NCBI GenBank assembly: GCA_018394295.1
Contig: CP074573.1
Coordinates: 372,001 to 436,000, forward strand
Direction of reading: 5' to 3'
DNA length: 64,000 nt
DNA from: Mycoplasmatota bacterium
Lineage (GTDB): Bacteria; Bacillota_I; Bacilli_A; Haloplasmatales; Haloplasmataceae
This document shows, in pieces, positions 8,252 to 20,510 of this stretch. Both the position numbers and the translations under genes were made by a program. Position 1 is the stretch's first letter. Each line of letters begins with the position of its first letter. The notes under the pieces are model-generated. The model was not told the DNA's origin. It saw only the letters and a list, made by a program, of their open reading frames with translations, and did no database searches.

Positions 8252-9459
8252 TTATCGTGTTATTTGATCTAATAATGCTAGATTTTCTTTTGCGATTTGA
8301 TCAATATCTAAATTATCATTTTTAATGGTGATACCAAGTGCAGCTTTATAATGGCTCTCATTATAATTAAATTTCTTGTTGGATATATTATGTATTATGA
8401 TTAAATCAGTGTTATAATAGATATAGAGTTTATCATCAATGGGTATCAATTTAACTCTTTTGTTTATAAACTTACTGGGTACAGAATATCCATTTCCTTT
8501 ATAATTTACAAGCAGTGTTTGCGGCACTGATTGTATATCTACGTTTTCTACGTAGGATTCTAACAGAATTTTGTTAGGTAAAGGATTTAGATATTCTTTT
8601 TCTTTTTCAAATAAGACACTCGGTGGTATATTGGTGGTTTGATTATTCTCTAGATTGACCTTGTTGTTTATCTTGTTCAATATATTGATCAGTTCCTCTT
8701 CATCTTCAAATTCACCATCATAAGGACGTAACCAAGCCAAGAATCGGTTAGCGGACTCATCTTTACCTTTTGTTTCTGGAGTCCTTGCCTTACATAATCT
8801 TATCGAAATTCCAAAATCCCGTTCAAATTGTTTTATTTTAGAATGTTTCTTTTTAGTTCCATTTGTGATGCTAACGACAGCTGACATATTATCCGTTAAA
8901 ATATGTTTAGGGATACCCCTAGATGATTTAATGTATCGATTACACAACGGATGAAGTCTTCTGTCGTTTTTGTTTTTGAATAAACGAATTTATGATACCT
9001 TGAGAATCCTAGAGTAGAAGTTAATACATTAAACTCAAATACTTCTCCGTACTTACTTATTAGTTTCATACTTTCTTTCCAATCTACTTGTAGTTGGTCT
9101 CCTGGCCTGGTTTCATATCTAACATGTGGAGTGGTGCTTTTAGGTATGGTAATATGATTATTTTGAGTATAGTGTCTAAAGGTTGAATATGCCGGTATAT
9201 TTTCATATTTATCTCTTAAATATTCATGAACTGCTTTCTTTGTTACGCCAGATTTATTCATCAAATGTGATATTTCTTCTTTATATTGATCAAATCCACT
9301 TTCGCGTTTTCTTGTAATCAATTTCTTTCCTCCATCTTCATAATATTTTTTAATAGTATGTCGGTCTAATCCATAGATTCTTGCTAATTCACTATAATTT
9401 GGTTTCATATCATACGTTCTCAATATATCTAACATTCCTAGTACATTTATTTCAGTCAC
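8252..9459 (-). pseudogene. istA: IstA-like transposase, frameshifted
   Basis: IS21-family transposase in two overlapping frames. The upstream part (9459 to about 8920) has an N-terminal helix-turn-helix region (ELARIYGLDRHTIKKYY) and the start of the DDE domain (LQVDWKESMKL). The downstream part (about 8920 to 8252) resumes with GIPKHILTDNMSAVV and holds the rest of the integrase core and the C-terminal domain. The two are out of phase at a run of four C on the + strand (8916-8919); one more base would join HLG to GIPKHILTDN. This is a disabling indel, or less likely a sequencing error. Confidence 0.88.
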
Positions 9460-9967: not shown

Positions 9968-11551
9968 TTATTGAATTAATCTTTTTTTCTTATTGTGATA
10001 TTTGTACAAGTTATATCCAGTAGAAACTAATAATAATTCTAATCTTACAGAATCCATACCTCTTCTTACTATTCTTTTGTACCAACGGTCGTATTTTATT
10101 ACTCCAAAGGTACCTTCAGATTGAATAGATCTATTCTTTCTTAATTCAATTCCTAATTCACTTTTTAAGTTATTCATAACCTCTTGGTGTAATGATGTTA
10201 ATTCCTCATTTAGTTTGATAATTCTATTCCCTTTTGATCTATGACATTCTGACCTAAGTGGACAATCAGTACAATCTTCACACTGATACAATTCTTCTGT
10301 TCGTCCATATTTATTCCCACGTACAGGTCTTGTTTTTAAAAAATGAAATCTTTTATTATTAGGACAGACTAGTTGTCCGTTCTCATCTTGTTTAAAATTA
10401 AAAGGTTTAAAAGGATTATTTATATATTTCTTATCTTCTGTTGACTTCTTATAAGTAGAGAATTTTTGATACAATTCTATACCATTTTCTTTACAATATA
10501 AGTAATTATTATAGCTCCCATATCCAGCATCACCAACAGGATAGGTGGGATATTTATAATAATGAGTTTTGAAACTTTCTATTAAAGGTTTGAAACAATC
10601 TGAATCTGAAGCATATTGAAATGCATCACAGACACTTATATATTCATCTGAAATACCTAATTGTATATTATAAGCAGGTATTAGTTGATCATTTCCCATA
10701 TAATCTCTTTTTACTCGCATAAATGTGGCATCTTTATCCGTTTTTGAATAACTATTTCGTTTATCACCACATGTTTGAATATGTTCTGCATATTCTTTTA
10801 ATTTACTTAAATACCGCTCTAATTTTTCATAATACCTTTGAGTATCACTCTTTCTTTTCCCTTTCCCATGAACAAATGTAGATAGATCTATTTTAAATCT
10901 ATTCTTGAAATCATAAAATATTGATTCGAAATATTCTATCTCATATTCTTCACGAGTAGAATAACTAGTCATTTCATAATTTAGAAAAGTACTGTTTATT
11001 TCATCTAATAAAATAGTTATCTTTCTATATAATTTTTCTCTATTCGTTGTACAAGCTTTCTTCCATATCCAAGTATATTTATTGGCATTCGCTTCAAACT
11101 TAGAACCATCTATGTATACAATATCAGTATTTACATTATCTTTGTCAAAGATATATTCATTAATATCATAAAATATTTCTTCAATACTACATTTTAAGTA
11201 ATTATTAATAAAATTAGAGAACGTCATATGAGTAGGAGTACTATTCTCGTCTCTTAATAAATGCATAAATCTAATATCTGTTTTACATAAAGACTCTAGT
11301 TCTCTTAAAGATGTGTAACCTTTTAACATAAAACCAAATAGTGTTACCTCTAACAAAGTGACTAAATTATAACCGATGCGACCTCTAGATTCTATTTTAT
11401 CGGTTATTAGGTACTTTTTTAAATTACATCCCTTCATTACCTCATCAAATGTATAGATAGGATCATCAAACGGAATAATTGTTTGAATTTCCAGTGGTAA
11501 AACTAGTTGTTTTAGTGTATAATTATTTGTATAATTTAGTACTTCAGACAT
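9968..11551 (-). CDS. IS1182-family transposase
   Basis: 527 residues, a full-length IS1182-type DDE transposase. The N-terminal DUF772-like region (GRIGYNLVTLLEVTLFGFMLKGYTSLRE is the start) is followed by an acidic site in VYIDGSKFEANANKY. A second lies in YPVGDAGYGSYNNYLYC. The cysteine cluster CEDCTDCPLRSEC comes next, and a C-terminal helix near RNRSIQSEGTFG supplies the expected glutamate. It is the only transposase in the nested set that looks uninterrupted, so this element could have moved most recently or could act in trans. Its start lies about 100 bp inside the right inverted repeat. Confidence 0.92.
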   Translation of the reverse strand: MSEVLNYTNNYTLKQLVLPLEIQTIIPFDDPIYTFDEVMKGCNLKKYLITDKIESRGRIGYNLVTLLEVTLFGFMLKGYTSLRELESLCKTDIRFMHLLRDENSTPTHMTFSNFINNYLKCSIEEIFYDINEYIFDKDNVNTDIVYIDGSKFEANANKYTWIWKKACTTNREKLYRKITILLDEINSTFLNYEMTSYSTREEYEIEYFESIFYDFKNRFKIDLSTFVHGKGKRKSDTQRYYEKLERYLSKLKEYAEHIQTCGDKRNSYSKTDKDATFMRVKRDYMGNDQLIPAYNIQLGISDEYISVCDAFQYASDSDCFKPLIESFKTHYYKYPTYPVGDAGYGSYNNYLYCKENGIELYQKFSTYKKSTEDKKYINNPFKPFNFKQDENGQLVCPNNKRFHFLKTRPVRGNKYGRTEELYQCEDCTDCPLRSECHRSKGNRIIKLNEELTSLHQEVMNNLKSELGIELRKNRSIQSEGTFGVIKYDRWYKRIVRRGMDSVRLELLLVSTGYNLYKYHNKKKRLIQ

Positions 11552-11858: not shown

Positions 11859-11886
11859 TTGACAAAAATACTTAAAAGTTTATAAT
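11859..11886 (+). promoter_or_regulatory. promoter of the helicase gene
   Basis: TTGACA (11859-11864) and TATAAT (11881-11886) are separated by 16 bases and lie 35 bases before the helicase start. Both boxes match the sigma-70/sigma-A consensus, so expression is probably constitutive. Confidence 0.75.
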
Positions 11887-11921
11887 ATAAGTATAATAAT
11901 GAAAAGGGTGGTAATATTGAT

Positions 11922-14900
11922 ATGAAAGTGGAAAAATTGATTATTAAAGGTAAAATCAATATTTTAAAAGGATTTTCAGAAGATGATTTTGAAAATTTAA
12001 AAAAATATTATATACCTATAATTAATATTCAGAAAAATGAATTTAAACAATATTTATATTACATTAACGATAATTGTAATGAAATTGTAATGAATTTACT
12101 AAAAGCCATGAGTGACAAGAATAATACATATATAATGCGATATGAAGAATTATCTTCAGTAATTAATAATATTGGTATTAATATGTTTACTAAGGTAGAA
12201 AATCAAAAAAAATTTAGAATTATAAACAATTCTTTAACTCCAAATCAATATTTTTATTTTTCTAATGAATTTGTATCTAATAATCGAACTCTATTAGAAG
12301 AATATATAGAGAAAGATATCTATAGAGATATAAATAATGAAGATGAATACAAATTAATTAGTAACATTTATAGTGATATAACCTATTATAAGAATTCTTA
12401 TTTTTATGCGTTTTCAAATTTAGAAGATATGTTTTCTGATATGGAAAAAATATATATTATTGATCAAGTTGATGAAAGTAAATTAGAGAAGACAAGTATC
12501 TATACAGATTTTATTGAATTAGCTAATGATACAAACAGTTACTTTATATTAATGGATAAAATTTTATCAAAATCCACAAATCTAATATATATAAGTTTTA
12601 AAGATAAGAAAGCAAGAAATGTATATGAAAAATATGTGAGAAAATTACCGAAAATATTTAGCGATATAAAAATTATGGTAGTAGATGATACAGAAAAAAT
12701 TAATGAAATAAAATATAGATTAGACATACTGGATATTTTTAGAAATTATTGGGGATCAAATTTTAATTTTAGAGAACTTGATTTTTATGATAATCCAGAC
12801 GATGATGAAAACTATAAAACAACAAAAAAAATATCTCAAGGAATGATTATTGAGGATATTATCAAACAAGCGGAAAGAGCATATTCAGGTGATGAGTCTT
12901 ATAAAGATATTTTCATAACAGCACCAACTGGGGCAGGAAAATCAGTATTATTTCAAATTTCTGCATTATATTTAGCAGAAAAATATCATAAAGTTACAAT
13001 TGTTATTTCTCCACTTATCGCTTTAATGCAAGATCAATTAGATGATATGAGAAATAAAGGGATTTATAATTCAACATATATTAATTCATCATTAACACAA
13101 ATTGAAAAGGAAGATAGAATTGATTGCATAAAAAAAGGTGAGATTGATATAATTTATTTAGCACCAGAAACTTTATTAGCTTACAATATCAAAAATATTA
13201 TTGGAGATAGAGAATTAGGATTATTTATTATAGATGAAGCCCATATTGTTACTACTTGGGGGAAAAACTTTAGACCAGATTATTGGTATTTAGGTAGTTA
13301 TATTAGTAGTATACGTAAGAACCAAAATCAATTCCCAATTTGTACATTGACTGCTACTGCAGTTTACTATGGACGAGAGGATATGTATGAAGAAATAACT
13401 TTGAGTCTGAATATGAAAAGAACAAGTACTTATTTAGGAAAAGTTGTAAGAAATAATATTTCATTTAATTATAATATAGATAAACATTTACTTGGAAGAG
13501 AAGAATACGAAAAAAATAAATTAATTCATATGTTAAAAAAAGTCGAAATCTCAAATAAAGAAAATAAAAAAATTTTAATATATTTTCCGTTCGCAACTCA
13601 GGTAGAAAAATATTATAATAAATTAAGATTGAAATTTCCAGGAAAAGTGACTAAATATCATGGAAAATTAAAAAAAGAAGAGAAAGAATTAAATGCAGAA
13701 GATTTTAAAAAAGGAAACAAGTTAATTATGCTTTGTACAAAGGCATTTGGAATGGGTATAAATGTTCCTGATTTTTCCAATGCTTATCATTTTGCATTAA
13801 CAGGTAATTTAAATGATTACGTCCAGGAGTTTGGACGTTTAGCTCGGGATTATAATATTCAAGGTCAAGTTATGATGAATTTCTTTGATAATGATTTTAA
13901 ATATATAAATCAGTTATTCGGAATGAGTATAATACAAGATTATCAAATAAAAGCTGTACTAAAAAGATTATATGATTTATACTTAATTAACAAACGTGAA
14001 CGCAATTTCTTGGTTACACCTAAAGATTTTGCACAAATTTTTATTAGGAATAATAAAATAGATGATGAAGATATTGAAAGGAAATTAAAAACAACATTAC
14101 TTTTAATAGAAAAAGATTCTCGAAATAGGTCTATTTTTCCTATGGTAATTTCACGACCAAGAAGTCTATTTACAACAATATTTTTGAGTATAATTAAAGA
14201 ATATGAAAATGATTTGTTGGATAGTAAATATGGTAGATATTTTAAAAGAGTATCAGATGGTAGAAAAAATTCCAAAGAATATAGAGGAAGATATAATCAA
14301 GAATGTTTTGTAAGTGATTTGGGAGATACATTCATATTTAATGCTAAAGAATGCTGGATTAATGAATATCCAGAATATAGTTTTGCTAAATTTAAATATC
14401 TATTATTGTCTGAAAAGGAAAAACTAGAAGGATTTATTCTAAAAGAAAAAATCAGTCAAAAGTACAGATTAGAAATAATATCTTTTACTCATGAAGTGTC
14501 TAAATTAAAAAATATACTATCAGATCATTTAGAAAAAGTTAATTCTATATTAGATGACTTTAAGGATAAAGGCAAAATGTTCACTATTGAGCAATTTAGA
14601 CAAAATTTAATTTCTAAAGGTTATTCTAATGAAATATCCTATTCAATTGCAAACTCATATATACCTTTTGTTAATATGAGCACAAATACACAAATGAATT
14701 TTGGAACATCAATATCTTTTAATAGAGACTATGAAAAATATCAAATTAAGAATAGAAAATATAATACTCTATTAAGAAATTTATTAACCAATAATGTTAT
14801 TAAATCTCGATTAGATAATTGTAATAATAAAGAAATAATAATTTACTTTAATATATCATCAAATAAAAATGAGATAAGGTTTTTATACCTTTTAGAAATG

Positions 14901-15173
14901 TTCGGTTTAATTAACTTTAAAATAAAAGGAGGAGATCAACCAGAGATATTTATACGTATAAATGAACCATTTAAATTAGAAAGATTAATTCAACCTAATT
15001 CTAACTATAGAAATGAATTATTGGAAAATGTTAAAACTAGACATAAAAATTCTGCTTTAATAATTAAGAAATTTATAAAAGAATTAGATAATGATTATTT
15101 ACGTTGGGATTTTATTGAAGATTATTATTTAGGTAAAGATGTATTAACAATAGCTTATAATAATGATAAATAA
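11922..15173 (+). CDS. RecQ-like superfamily 2 helicase, probable defence protein
   Basis: 1083 residues. The helicase core spans about residues 310-660: Walker A APTGAGKS (about 334-341), motif Ia VISPLIALMQDQ, DEAH box IIDEAH (438-441), motif III TLTATA (about 475), GMGINVPDF (about 610) and a RecQ-style motif VI QEFGRLARD (about 633-641). The first 300 residues and the last 400 match nothing I know; the C-terminal part is long and rich in Lys, Asn and Ile. It is far larger than housekeeping RecQ (about 600 residues) and lacks an obvious RecQ zinc or HRDC region. A GGTGGT-type ribosome site and a strong promoter precede it. The next gene, 29 bases on, encodes a PD-(D/E)XK-like protein. Helicase identity is sure, the defence role is inferred. 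Confidence 0.85.
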   Translation: MKVEKLIIKGKINILKGFSEDDFENLKKYYIPIINIQKNEFKQYLYYINDNCNEIVMNLLKAMSDKNNTYIMRYEELSSVINNIGINMFTKVENQKKFRIINNSLTPNQYFYFSNEFVSNNRTLLEEYIEKDIYRDINNEDEYKLISNIYSDITYYKNSYFYAFSNLEDMFSDMEKIYIIDQVDESKLEKTSIYTDFIELANDTNSYFILMDKILSKSTNLIYISFKDKKARNVYEKYVRKLPKIFSDIKIMVVDDTEKINEIKYRLDILDIFRNYWGSNFNFRELDFYDNPDDDENYKTTKKISQGMIIEDIIKQAERAYSGDESYKDIFITAPTGAGKSVLFQISALYLAEKYHKVTIVISPLIALMQDQLDDMRNKGIYNSTYINSSLTQIEKEDRIDCIKKGEIDIIYLAPETLLAYNIKNIIGDRELGLFIIDEAHIVTTWGKNFRPDYWYLGSYISSIRKNQNQFPICTLTATAVYYGREDMYEEITLSLNMKRTSTYLGKVVRNNISFNYNIDKHLLGREEYEKNKLIHMLKKVEISNKENKKILIYFPFATQVEKYYNKLRLKFPGKVTKYHGKLKKEEKELNAEDFKKGNKLIMLCTKAFGMGINVPDFSNAYHFALTGNLNDYVQEFGRLARDYNIQGQVMMNFFDNDFKYINQLFGMSIIQDYQIKAVLKRLYDLYLINKRERNFLVTPKDFAQIFIRNNKIDDEDIERKLKTTLLLIEKDSRNRSIFPMVISRPRSLFTTIFLSIIKEYENDLLDSKYGRYFKRVSDGRKNSKEYRGRYNQECFVSDLGDTFIFNAKECWINEYPEYSFAKFKYLLLSEKEKLEGFILKEKISQKYRLEIISFTHEVSKLKNILSDHLEKVNSILDDFKDKGKMFTIEQFRQNLISKGYSNEISYSIANSYIPFVNMSTNTQMNFGTSISFNRDYEKYQIKNRKYNTLLRNLLTNNVIKSRLDNCNNKEIIIYFNISSNKNEIRFLYLLEMFGLINFKIKGGDQPEIFIRINEPFKLERLIQPNSNYRNELLENVKTRHKNSALIIKKFIKELDNDYLRWDFIEDYYLGKDVLTIAYNNDK

Positions 15174-15202
15174 ATATTTCTAATTGATAATAGGAGTTAT
15201 TG

Positions 15203-15916
15203 ATGAAAAATTTGAGAAATAGAGACCATATTAGTGAACATAATATTTCTAATTATTTAGATAAATATTTTTATACAAAGATTAAGGAAATTGGTACTAA
15301 TATAGAGCAAATTAAACGAGTATATACTAAGGAAGAACAACTAAAAGGTATAGATGTTAAAATAATACAACAATCTGGTAATATTATTTCAATTGACGAA
15401 AAAGTCGCGACTAATTACAATACAAAATTATCTAAGTTTGCTTTTGAATTAGATTCATATCAGTTTAATAGACTTGTACCAGGATGGTTAGTATCTGAAA
15501 ACAATACTGATTATTATTTGCTTGGTTGGATAGATGTGATTGAAGACTTAGTTGAAAGTGGTATAAAAATAAAATCAGATACAGTTATTAACGAAGAAGA
15601 TATTAATTATTTAGAGTTATTATTAGTAACAAAGGAAACGATAATTGATTTTTTGTCTGATAATGGGTATGATGTTAATTATCTAATTGAACTTACTAAG
15701 GATATTAGACATGGTAAAAGGAAATTAGACCGAAATAGATATTTGTATAAAAATGAATATGATAATGGAATTAGGGATTTTCACTTCACTATGTCTGGAA
15801 CAAAAGTAGAAAATCCATTAATGGTTAATATTAGAAAAGAAAAGTTAATAGAGTTAGGTAATAAACGACTATTTATAGTTGATAAAAATGGTGTTAAAGT
15901 TAAGAAATTTGAATAA
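15203..15916 (+). CDS. putative PD-(D/E)XK nuclease, partner of the helicase
   Basis: 237 residues from ATG 15203, which follows AGGAG by six bases; a TTG just before is also in frame. I do not recognise a named family. Residues 40-115 look like a PD-(D/E)XK fold: an early glutamate region, GIDVK with Asp51, then a strand ending in IDEKVA (Asp65-Glu66-Lys67), then a helix and the paired segment WLVSENNTDYYLLGWI. This spacing is typical of restriction-like nucleases. The C-terminal half is basic and unassigned. It is co-directional with the helicase, 29 bases apart, and ends at a strong terminator, so the two genes form one transcription unit. Nuclease assignment is by motif only. Confidence 0.65.
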   Translation: MKNLRNRDHISEHNISNYLDKYFYTKIKEIGTNIEQIKRVYTKEEQLKGIDVKIIQQSGNIISIDEKVATNYNTKLSKFAFELDSYQFNRLVPGWLVSENNTDYYLLGWIDVIEDLVESGIKIKSDTVINEEDINYLELLLVTKETIIDFLSDNGYDVNYLIELTKDIRHGKRKLDRNRYLYKNEYDNGIRDFHFTMSGTKVENPLMVNIRKEKLIELGNKRLFIVDKNGVKVKKFE

Positions 15917-15944
15917 AAATCCGCGATTTTTTTTCGCGGATTTT
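15916..15944. terminator. bidirectional terminator
   Basis: Ten-base perfect arms AAAATCCGCG and CGCGGATTTT flank a T-rich loop between the convergent nuclease and methyltransferase genes. A and T tracts on both sides allow termination in both directions. Confidence 0.9.
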
Positions 15945-15995
15945 GTTAATTAACCTTTCATTAAAACAATTCTTTATCTATAGATTAATCGATTA

Positions 15996-17228
15996 TTACT
16001 CATTATTCTCATTTTCAATTATATCATTTAATGTTAAAGATAATTTATTTACTATACCAACAACTAATGCATTTCCCATAAAGAAGAACCTTTTTCTATC
16101 AGTTATATTAACTGCACATTTAGATGGATTAGTCCAATTGTCAGGGAATCCATTTAACCTTTCACATTCAATTGGAGTTAATAAACGTAATTTACCGTTT
16201 TTTATATCTTTAATAACGTGGGTACTTCTATTAACAGATGCTTCGCTAGTTAATATTGTTCTTGCAGGTAAATCTACTTTATCAGGGAATGACATACCAC
16301 CCTCTGAATAGAAATATTCAAAGCCATTAGCGTCTACTCTTTTCTCTTTTTTTGCACCTTTCATAAACTTAAAACGTTCAAGTTTATTGGAATCTTTATC
16401 AATAAAGTATTTATTATCAACTTCTGTCTCTAAAATATCCCTTAATGGAGTTATCTCCCTCTCAACGGGTTTTGTATCAATTGTTACAACTTTTCCACTA
16501 ATCATAATACCTGAATTATAAAATTGTGATTTAAAATTATCTGATACATCTACTAAATCCTTATAATATGAAATATCAAATTGTATAGGTTTCTTTTTTG
16601 AGTTATAGGATGAGTTTAATTTAAATTGATTATTAAAGAAACCTGTTTCCACAATAATCTCTTTACGTTCTGATGTAGCTATTTTTTTATAATAATTAGT
16701 TGAATTGAGTGATGCAAACATAAAAACTCTACGTCTTCTTTGAGGAAAACCATATTCTGCAGCATTTATTACTCTCCATTCTAAAGAGTAGCCTAAATCA
16801 TAAAATGTTCTAAGCATAATCCCAAAATCTCTTCCCCGTTGTTTAGATGGAGATTTAATTAATCTATCTACATTTTCAAGTAAAACGAATTTAGGTTTTT
16901 TAACTTCAAGTATTTTTGCAATATTCCACCATAAGACACCCTTTTTACCTTGTATTCCTTCAGCTTTTGTTCTTGCAACGGAGTAATCTTGACATGGAAA
17001 TCCTCCTACAAGTAATGTATGATCTGGAATTAAAGATTTATCTACTTTATTTATGTCTTCATTAATAACATTTTCATGACCAAAATTTGATATATATACT
17101 TCATAAGCATGTTGAGCTTTTGTAGCTGGTTCCCATTGATTTGCCCAAAGGGTTTTCCATCCATTTTTTTCAAGACCAAGTCTAAATCCACCTACTCCAG
17201 CAAATAACTCTATCATAGTTCTTTCCAT
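15996..17228 (-). CDS. DNA (cytosine-5) methyltransferase of a Sau3AI-like R-M system
   Basis: 410 residues from the ATG at 17228, which follows GGAGGAG; the frame opens upstream at a TTG without need. It transfers a methyl group from S-adenosylmethionine to C5 of cytosine. Motif I is ELFAGVGGFRLGLEK, the catalytic motif IV is GGFPCQDYSVA, motif VI is LLENV, motif VIII is QRRRRVF and motif X is GNALVV. A target-recognition region lies between about 190 and 330. It is divergent from the restriction gene with about 120 bases between starts, a layout that allows shared control. By analogy with Sau3AI its target should be GATC with the cytosine methylated; that is inference. Confidence 0.93.
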   Translation of the reverse strand: MERTMIELFAGVGGFRLGLEKNGWKTLWANQWEPATKAQHAYEVYISNFGHENVINEDINKVDKSLIPDHTLLVGGFPCQDYSVARTKAEGIQGKKGVLWWNIAKILEVKKPKFVLLENVDRLIKSPSKQRGRDFGIMLRTFYDLGYSLEWRVINAAEYGFPQRRRRVFMFASLNSTNYYKKIATSERKEIIVETGFFNNQFKLNSSYNSKKKPIQFDISYYKDLVDVSDNFKSQFYNSGIMISGKVVTIDTKPVEREITPLRDILETEVDNKYFIDKDSNKLERFKFMKGAKKEKRVDANGFEYFYSEGGMSFPDKVDLPARTILTSEASVNRSTHVIKDIKNGKLRLLTPIECERLNGFPDNWTNPSKCAVNITDRKRFFFMGNALVVGIVNKLSLTLNDIIENENNE

Positions 17229-17347
17229 TGATACTCCTCCAATATTTGTCAAAAATAATCATATATTGTATACTATTGTTACATGTTATTATACTATAAA
17301 TCTTGTTTAAGATCAAGGAAAATAATTATATTTTAGGGGTGGTAAAA

Positions 17348-18718
17348 TTGTTATATGATAAGAATGATATTCAGTCTATATTTAGTTATGCCAAAAGCCT
17401 TGAAGGAAAAAAATTTAAAGATGTTGGATCAAATCCAGTTCTTTTTAATAATACAAAAGGTGGATTAGGACAATTTATTGAAGAGGAGTATTTTGGGTAT
17501 AAAGTTAATTCTCGATCAGAAGCAGATTTTTTTGAAGCTGGATTAGAATTAAAAGTTACCCCTTACAAAACTAATAAAAATGGTACAAAATCTGCTAAGG
17601 AACGTTTAGTTTTAAATATTATTAATTATATGGACGAAGTAGAGAAGTCCTTTGATGAAAGTTCATTTTGGACTAAAAGCAATAAAATTCTATTAGTTTT
17701 TTATGAATGGCTAAAAGATGTCTCAAAAGAAGAATATGAAATAAGAAAGGTACTATTATTTCAATATCCTGAAGAAGATCTAATTATAATTAAAAGAGAT
17801 TGGGAAGAAATTAACGAGAAAATAAAAAATGGACTAGCCCATACAATTTCAGAAGGAGACACCCTTTATTTAGGTGCGTGTACTAAAGGTGCCAATAAAA
17901 ATAGTTTACGACAACAACCAAATTCCAATATCTTAGCAAAACAAAGAGCCTATAGTCTGAAACAATCTTATATGACATCAGTATTAAATAAATATGCTTT
18001 TGGAAGTAATACATCTGAAAAAATAATTAAAGATTATAAAGATATTCAATATATATCACTAGAACAATACATTTTAGGTAAATATAGTAAATATTACAAT
18101 AAAAGAATTGATGATTTAAAGCAACAATTTAATATTAAAGGTAATCCGAAACAGTATGTTTACATGATTGCTAGTAAAATACTGGGTGTAAATAATATAT
18201 CCAAAACTGAAGAAATAGAAAAAGCAAATATAAAGATTAAAACAGTGAGATTGGAAAAAGATGGTCATATAGAACAAAGTATGTCGTTTCCAGGTTTTAA
18301 ATTTAAAGATTTGGTAAAGGAAGAATGGGAAGAATCAACATTAAGAACAATGTTTTACGAAACTAAATTCTTAATTTTCGTAACACAAAAAAATTGTAAG
18401 GGTGATTTAATATTCAAAAAAGCACTATTTTGGAATATGCCAATCGAGGTTTTAGATGGACAGATTAAGGATACATGGCTTGAAACGGTTAGGATAATTC
18501 AAGAGGGTGTTAAATTAGTGAATAAAAATGGGATGATATATAACAACCTGCCAGGTATAAAATTTAATGGTATATGTCATGTGCGTCCGCATACTAGTGT
18601 ATCATCATATGAAAAAGGTAATCCTAATGCTGATGAACTACCAGATGGTAGATGGATGACAAAGCAGTGTTTCTGGTTAGATAGAAAATATGTAAGAAAG
18701 TTTTTATTACATGAATAA
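17348..18718 (+). CDS. Sau3AI-like type II restriction endonuclease (MutH-like)
   Basis: 456 residues from TTG 17348, placed after AGGGGTGG; the frame is open to 17303 but without a ribosome site. The N-terminal domain is MutH-like: GQFIEEEYFG, Asp60 in EADFFEAG, then Glu67-x-Lys69 (ELK), followed by KERLVLNIINY, a stretch I associate with the Sau3AI family. Length fits Sau3AI (about 490 residues, a tandem of a catalytic and a MutH-like regulatory half). Sau3AI cuts GATC, so the same target is expected. The cognate m5C methyltransferase is divergent next door. Confidence is high for the family and moderate for the exact site. Confidence 0.88.
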   Translation: MLYDKNDIQSIFSYAKSLEGKKFKDVGSNPVLFNNTKGGLGQFIEEEYFGYKVNSRSEADFFEAGLELKVTPYKTNKNGTKSAKERLVLNIINYMDEVEKSFDESSFWTKSNKILLVFYEWLKDVSKEEYEIRKVLLFQYPEEDLIIIKRDWEEINEKIKNGLAHTISEGDTLYLGACTKGANKNSLRQQPNSNILAKQRAYSLKQSYMTSVLNKYAFGSNTSEKIIKDYKDIQYISLEQYILGKYSKYYNKRIDDLKQQFNIKGNPKQYVYMIASKILGVNNISKTEEIEKANIKIKTVRLEKDGHIEQSMSFPGFKFKDLVKEEWEESTLRTMFYETKFLIFVTQKNCKGDLIFKKALFWNMPIEVLDGQIKDTWLETVRIIQEGVKLVNKNGMIYNNLPGIKFNGICHVRPHTSVSSYEKGNPNADELPDGRWMTKQCFWLDRKYVRKFLLHE

Positions 18719-19037: not shown

Positions 19038-20510
19038 ATGGATGTGGGAAATCGTGATTTTCATTTTTTAATAAATAACCTCTTTTGTGAGTATACAGAG
19101 AACTTAAATGATGCAAATGATTACTTAGAAGAAATAAATGGTTTAGAAACAAGTAGTTTGTTAGAAGAATTTTATAAAAAATATATCGTTAATTTAATTT
19201 GTTTAAATCTTGAAGAATATGAAATAGTATATGAAAATGCGAAAGCATGTTTATCTATTTATAAAAAATTAAATCAATCAGATAGAGATAGTTATAGTAG
19301 TGAATACTTATTTTCATACTATTATGTAATTTTTCTTAAAGAATATTTTGAGAAAAATGATCAGATTGAAAATGAATTATTAAATTTAAAAAAAGAAATT
19401 CAAAAAGAAGAAAAAAATGAAATATTAGATGATTTATTAAGGAAAATTAATCTATATCTCTTAACTATTTCAAAAGAAAATGAATTTATTACAGATGATA
19501 ATATTAAGGACTTTAGTTTTGATGATTTTACATTTTTATGTGAAAAAACAGCTTCTAATATAGTAGGTCAAAATAATAATCATGATATTGATTTTCTAAG
19601 TCATTATACGAGTATTGGGAATTCTTTTAATATTTTGGAACACAAAGAATTATGGGTCACAAGATACGATTTCTTAAATGATAAATCTGAATTTAAATAT
19701 ATCAAGAATGTTTTATCAGAATTACGTGATGATTTTAGTCTACAAGAATTATTTGATGATATTGAAAAACGATTTATAATAAACTCAATTGATATTATAA
19801 TAAGAATTATTTCTTATTTTCATGGAGAACTGCCTTACAATAAACTAAATGAAGATGAAAAGAATCTTATTGAGAATTATAAAAACAAATACTATTTTGT
19901 TTTATCGTTTTCTAAAAACCAAGATTCTCTCCCTTTATGGGGAAATTACACTGATTTTAATGGTGTTAATCTTTTATTAGACAATAAAAAACTAACAGAT
20001 ACTTTCAATAATCAAAATCAAGAAGATTATGATCTATTGTATTTTATTAATACAAACTCAAAGAAAGAGCTATATTCAACCTTTTATTCTGGTGAAGTAT
20101 TATATGATTTAAAAGAAATAAAGCGTATTTTACTTAAAGATTTTAGGAAAGCATTAGACTTACATAAGAAAAAGGCGAACTTTATTAGAGAATCGGTAAT
20201 GACGCGTATACTCATTGAAATAACACTATTAAGAAGATTACTTGTAAAGATTAACTATTTTTCTAGCGAAGAAGAATATAGATTTGTATTTGCATTAGAT
20301 GAAGCGTTATATCATCAAAAAGTTAATTTTAGATGTGGAAAAGACAGCTACATTCCTTATATAAAGATTCCAATAACATTAGATAATATAGAAAAAATAG
20401 TTGTTGGACCAAGAAATAATTCTGATTTAGTTGTAAAAGGATTTGAAGAATATAAGACGCATAATAAACTAAATTTTAAGGTTGTTAATTCTGAAATTCC
20501 TTTTAGATAA
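19038..20510 (+). CDS. DUF2971-family protein
   Basis: 490 residues; AGGGGAG precedes the ATG. Residues 1-170 are a helical, Glu/Tyr-rich region, perhaps TPR-like. From about residue 187 the DUF2971 pattern appears: FLSHYTS (His189-Tyr190), LWVTRYDFLNDKSEF, then YFVLSFSKNQDSLPLWGNY (about 290-308), SSEEEYRFVFALDE (about 408-421) and a closing strand IEKIVVGPRNN. DUF2971 proteins are often found in defence islands and their activity is, to my knowledge, not settled. The His-Tyr, then aromatic, then Glu-rich order recalls ADP-ribosyltransferases of the H-Y-E class, but this is a guess. It stands alone after the R-M genes. Confidence 0.75.
   Translation: MDVGNRDFHFLINNLFCEYTENLNDANDYLEEINGLETSSLLEEFYKKYIVNLICLNLEEYEIVYENAKACLSIYKKLNQSDRDSYSSEYLFSYYYVIFLKEYFEKNDQIENELLNLKKEIQKEEKNEILDDLLRKINLYLLTISKENEFITDDNIKDFSFDDFTFLCEKTASNIVGQNNNHDIDFLSHYTSIGNSFNILEHKELWVTRYDFLNDKSEFKYIKNVLSELRDDFSLQELFDDIEKRFIINSIDIIIRIISYFHGELPYNKLNEDEKNLIENYKNKYYFVLSFSKNQDSLPLWGNYTDFNGVNLLLDNKKLTDTFNNQNQEDYDLLYFINTNSKKELYSTFYSGEVLYDLKEIKRILLKDFRKALDLHKKKANFIRESVMTRILIEITLLRRLLVKINYFSSEEEYRFVFALDEALYHQKVNFRCGKDSYIPYIKIPITLDNIEKIVVGPRNNSDLVVKGFEEYKTHNKLNFKVVNSEIPFR

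Follow-up and report, generated by a model that had tools for sequence, protein, structure and literature searches.

We analysed a 64,000-nt window of contig CP074573.1 (GCA_018394295.1, Haloplasmataceae), to which all unprefixed coordinates refer, in which a gene for a 1083-residue helicase with a RecQ-like core, a gene for a 237-residue protein (hereafter the small protein) and a restriction-modification (R-M) gene pair lie side by side. These genes are probably best explained as a Sau3AI-type R-M locus carrying an unnamed, putative accessory nuclease, the small protein, beside a defence-island helicase that was acquired independently. The initial annotation had proposed instead that the helicase and the small protein formed a two-gene helicase-nuclease module. 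In the sampled genomes, plasmids, phages and viral contigs, on which all prevalence figures rest, the three other loci of the small protein all lacked the helicase, just as the 11 other helicase loci all lacked the small protein. Additionally, a DNA methyltransferase gene adjoins the small protein in all four of its known loci. Since helicase and small protein were never together in the other loci found, an outcome that the initial annotation had itself named as grounds for refutation, they do not constitute a conserved two-gene system, and the proposed module is not supported.

The plausible two-gene defence system is thus unsupported, and two sharper leads take its place, both of which are testable in laboratory strains. 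The first is a rare, unnamed, R-M-linked family of PD-(D/E)XK-like proteins in which the catalytic-type residues are conserved throughout. The second is a widespread RecQ-like helicase of defence islands, PADLOC family C3a193, whose gene is preceded in one clade by a sigma-70/MzaA-like gene.

Organization of the locus

The genes and expression signals of the locus are as follows:

11859..11886, + strand: sigma-70 consensus promoter, TTGACA-16-TATAAT, 12 of 12 consensus positions matched
11922..15173, + strand: RecQ-core SF2 helicase, 1083 residues, PADLOC family C3a193; core at residues 328-687, extensions at ~1-300 (N-terminal) and ~690-1083 (C-terminal), both conserved
15203..15916, + strand: PD-(D/E)XK-like protein, 237 residues, unnamed family; ATG at 15203, stop at 15916, motif residues invariant
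15916..15944, no strand assigned: terminator hairpin with A and T tracts, -15.9 kcal/mol, z = -4.6
15996..17252, - strand: C5-cytosine DNA methyltransferase, M.Sau3AI type; PF00145 228 bits, TIGR00675 253 bits
17303..18718, + strand: Sau3AI-family type II restriction endonuclease with a MutH-like domain; NF040973 553 bits (cut-off 300), PF02976

The two reading frames upstream of the hairpin are as the initial annotation described them, a RecQ-core helicase followed after 29 bases by a 237-residue protein, and the small-protein gene is preceded by an AGGAG ribosome-binding site. The promoter at 11859 is the only perfect TTGACA/TATAAT match in the window, where 0.24 would be expected by chance; its position just 5' of the helicase start is therefore unlikely to be accidental. 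The hairpin lies between the convergent small-protein and methyltransferase genes and could thus serve both, so that it is probably bidirectional. The strong promoter and terminator that had been ascribed to the pair were both recovered in this way, and the helicase and the small protein probably share one transcript in the window, as judged from the sequence.

The Sau3AI-like R-M pair was likewise borne out by family matches. As in other Sau3AI-family type II systems, both genes are intact and adjacent, and the endonuclease exceeds the score required for membership of the family. What sets the locus apart from those systems is a third gene, PD-(D/E)XK-like, that converges on the methyltransferase gene, an arrangement that is also found in another genus.

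Linkage of the small protein to restriction-modification genes

The closest relative of the small protein (59% identity) is encoded in G003, a genome from another genus of the same bacterial family, in the gene order Sau3AI, C5 methyltransferase, small protein and HNH_2 endonuclease. The methyltransferase and small-protein genes are convergent in both genomes, with 37 bp between them in G003 and 79 bp in the window, and the HNH_2 gene, whose end is 22 bp from the small-protein gene, takes the upstream position held by the helicase in the window. The Sau3AI endonucleases of the two genomes are 63% identical and the C5 methyltransferases 71%; together with the 59% of the small proteins, these values are as expected for three genes inherited together. 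Among eight genomes of the bacterial family, Sau3AI and the small protein were both present in the same two and neither was present in the other six.

More distant homologues also lie among R-M genes. On a plasmid of Psychrobacillus glaciei, the small-protein homologue (26% identity) is accompanied by a C5 methyltransferase 48-51% identical to that of the window, an NgoFVII-like PLD protein and a BglII-family endonuclease. The fourth member is encoded on a phage contig (L014:9968-11427), is 28-31% identical and readable only with TAG as glutamine, and overlaps an EcoRI-type adenine methyltransferase gene by 4 bp. These two phage genes might represent a phage-borne R-M pair.

These results suggest that the small protein belongs with the neighbouring Sau3AI-type R-M genes, which we consider probable jointly with the helicase being a separate gene. 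Four points weigh against this view. The family has only four known members, and the few loci behind its R-M linkage include two from a single bacterial family. The small protein was found in none of 10 plasmid loci with an M.Sau3AI-like methyltransferase (L035-L044), which indicates that it is dispensable for such R-M systems. The spacing of helicase and small protein, 29 bp apart under one promoter, is a usual sign of co-expression. Furthermore, the predicted nuclease fold is without model support, as AlphaFold2 gave the small protein a mean predicted local distance difference test score (pLDDT) of 36.9 from a shallow alignment.

The small protein as a predicted nuclease

The alignment of the four family members (window, G003, P. 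glaciei plasmid and phage contig), with identities to the window's protein of 26-59%, contained 29 invariant columns. These include D51, D65, E66 and K67, as well as E12, G49-I50, E82 and G94-W95. The chance that four random columns of 237 would all fall within the 29 invariant ones is about 2 in 10,000, a rough figure as neighbouring columns are not independent. Because the four motif residues are invariant across such divergent members, the small protein is likely a PD-(D/E)XK-type nuclease, in agreement with the initial annotation, which had predicted a nuclease from the same residues.

Sequence searches of the small protein against Pfam, NCBIfam, PADLOC, PHROG and PDB returned no significant match. 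When all four family members were searched against Pfam and PADLOC at E-values up to 10, nothing relevant was found, HamA/DUF1837 included, and the family profile gave only weak and implausible matches in PDB (a repeat design labelled lysozyme, and a lectin). No further homologues were detected in several hundred other sampled genomes, and scans of genome contigs with either protein, small protein or helicase, as a single query sequence yielded no relatives. The small-protein family is therefore rare and unnamed.

The statement in the initial annotation that the pair matched no nameable system was supported. The defence-system search with PADLOC gave no match for the small protein, which is also without a Pfam or NCBIfam model and without a HamA match. 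The same search placed the helicase in C3a193, a family that is catalogued, although unnamed.

The helicase and its relatives

The helicase core (residues 328-687) matched the RecQ model TIGR01389 with 219.5 bits, which is below the equivalog cut-off of 640.2, so that the protein does not qualify as a canonical RecQ by this model. The helicase motifs TAPTGAGKS, DEAH and QEFGRLAR are intact. The match to C3a193, labelled "poss. alt. Cas3" in PADLOC, was much longer (521 bits), covering residues 41-1073 of the protein and positions 44-982 of the 983-position profile. As C3a193 aligns along the full length, both extensions belong to a family that is catalogued but uncharacterised; the 300-residue N-terminus and 400-residue C-terminus that had been described as unknown are thus shared by homologues. 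The predicted structure was usable only for the core (residues ~300-650), and a fold search with this model identified RecQ helicases over residues 260-660, the extensions being left uncovered. The core (residues 330-683) also matched the PsyrT profile of PADLOC with 163 bits. PsyrTA thus has a RecQ-type helicase core in common with the window, but only the core matches and the window's partner protein is not a phosphoribosyltransferase-type antitoxin.

Eleven other loci with C3a193 helicases were examined, in one of which (L007) the helicase was truncated by an insertion sequence (IS) element. Searches at the class and phylum levels scored two candidates per genome, so that the helicase counts are lower bounds. 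Type I R-M genes were found near the helicase in L006 and L019, and the neighbours in other loci were GmrSD-DUF4268 (L024), HNH_2 (L004) and a NERD/UvrD-like gene (L023). In L025 (7218-11515), the helicase lies between tape-measure and ADP-ribosylglycohydrolase genes on a prophage-like contig with tail genes, a setting that is unusual for a defence gene. From these gene neighbourhoods, the helicase would be an independent gene of defence islands and mobile elements.

A sigma-70-like gene is located directly upstream of the helicase in four of these loci, as follows:

L005:6466-11138, sigma-like gene and C3a193 helicase
L006:6356-10799, sigma-like gene and C3a193 helicase
L016:6858-11148, sigma-like gene and C3a193 helicase
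L017:2393-6630, sigma-like gene and C3a193 helicase

In a phylogenetic tree, the sigma-linked helicases fell into one clade (support 97/100), of which four of the five members have the sigma-like gene, and the window helicase was placed outside. In L016 and L017, the sigma-like protein matched PADLOC MzaA with about 109 bits, and mzaA is described as coding for a sigma factor in mzaABCDE, a validated system (PMC9523054). In the literature searched, no report connected a RecQ-like helicase and a sigma factor in the context of defence. The sigma-70-like gene and the C3a193 helicase of this clade possibly represent an unnamed two-gene defence unit.

The window helicase is like other C3a193 members in its full-length match and in its homologues with the same N- and C-terminal regions, but no CRISPR genes were recognised alongside it in the window, and it differs from four relatives in lacking the upstream sigma-70-like gene. 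Loss of a sigma-70 partner through the IS1182 insertion to its left was considered and found no support, as the helicase is positioned outside the sigma-linked clade and the only strong sigma match in the genome resembles RpoD.

Several observations were made at the other helicase loci. The sigma-helicase pair of L016 adjoins a repeat array of CRISPR-like appearance and a CARF/Csm6-like gene (L016:3136-6551), both read from the sequence without confirmation by models and perhaps the origin of the PADLOC label. The sigma-helicase locus of L005 also contains a DpnI_C-type winged-helix domain. In L019 (10584-15650), a 1688-residue protein combines an exonuclease-like N-terminus with RecQ-type and UvrD-type helicase parts in one chain, and its gene comes immediately after those of the C3a193 helicase and of a type I R-M operon, which includes a YgjP-like protease.

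Proposed roles and alternative explanations

In the explanation that we favour, the R-M locus with its accessory nuclease (15203-18718) and the helicase (11922-15173) would work as two modules. In the first, the C5 methyltransferase would protect host recognition sites and the endonuclease, of the Sau3AI/MutH fold, would cut unprotected DNA; the GATC specificity is that expected from the Sau3AI family. The small protein would most likely work for the R-M locus as a PD-(D/E)XK endonuclease or nickase: it could be a second enzyme that restricts or nicks DNA, or a processing nuclease held in check where the methyltransferase protects. In the second module, the helicase would probably act alone, on the ends or forks of phage or plasmid DNA. 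Judging from the intact motifs of its RecQ core and from its gene neighbourhoods, it would probably unwind or remodel invading DNA. Neighbour shuffling may have brought the helicase into one operon with the third R-M gene, with the two modules functioning independently.

The alternative that survives best, although we regard it as unlikely, is that helicase and small protein are parts of a single enzyme, an ATP-driven motor with a PD-(D/E)XK nuclease, comparable to Hachiman HamAB, which senses damage or free ends, or to CglI/NgoAVII (PMC4267653, PMC5737866, PMC12278908). The 29-bp gap, the common promoter and the single terminator would fit such an enzyme, and precedents exist. Hachiman has an adjacent D-E(X)K nuclease and SF2 helicase (PMC12278908), and CglI/NgoAVII, an ATP-dependent R-M type, has a C5 methyltransferase, an endonuclease and an SF2 ATPase encoded by three genes side by side (PMC4267653). 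In addition, the small-protein gene follows other nuclease genes in an operon-like manner, HNH in G003 and BglII-like in Psychrobacillus, so that exchangeable partners are conceivable. Because co-transcription is likely and a different nuclease lies upstream in these two bacterial loci, a Hachiman- or CglI-like way of working is possible at low probability. However, the absence of the pair from every other small-protein and helicase locus speaks against it, as do the differences from both precedents. HamA is a DUF1837 protein and HamB is Ski2-like, whereas the window has no DUF1837 match and a RecQ-like core (TIGR01389), the small protein has no HamA match, and HamB is not among the PADLOC matches listed for the helicase (25 of 27). 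CglI/NgoAVII combine a PLD-type nuclease and B3 DNA-binding domain with a Z1-domain ATPase, whereas the window has a PD-(D/E)XK-like protein and a RecQ-like core in a linkage that is not conserved; in Pfam, neither window protein matched PLD, RE_NgoFVII or Z1.

The small protein might also itself be the restriction enzyme of a new, methyltransferase-linked type II family, in which case the Sau3AI, BglII-like and HNH genes would be redundant or later additions. This would suit the phage contig, where no other restriction gene was recognised alongside the homologue and its overlapping methyltransferase, and the invariance of the catalytic-type residues. Three of the four loci already contain a recognised restriction enzyme, and we find this explanation improbable.

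Doubtful to a greater degree is the idea of a nuclease subunit shared among R-M islands with exchangeable upstream partners, namely the RecQ-like helicase in the window, HNH in G003, and BglII-like and PLD proteins in Psychrobacillus. If true, the version with the helicase would be an ATP-dependent, methylation-guided restriction machine of an undescribed kind.

A Vsr-like nickase repairing the T:G mismatches that arise from the deaminated product of the C5 methyltransferase is very improbable: such genes are frequent in C5 R-M loci, and two plasmid relatives with the same methyltransferase type (L038 and L044) carry an adjoining gene annotated as a very short patch repair endonuclease, but the small protein matched no Vsr model in the Pfam, NCBIfam or PADLOC searches, is far longer (237 residues) than the annotated Vsr genes (~136-157 residues), and in one locus is paired with an adenine methyltransferase, where such repair is not needed.

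Other features of the window

Two further genes flank the locus:

9968-11551: IS1182-like transposase, the nearest of the transposase genes to the left of the helicase
19038-20510: DUF2971 gene, 490 residues, beside the R-M genes; C-terminal portion similar to DUF2971 and, at 65 bits, to a PHROG family without an assigned function

The DUF2971 neighbour named in the initial annotation was thus confirmed by its family match, and its protein had no match in PADLOC. Additionally, two overlapping open reading frames (231 and 187 residues) at 8252-9459 resemble a single IS21-type transposase split by a frameshift, and they appear to be followed downstream by a gene for an IstB-like ATPase, judged by sequence alone.

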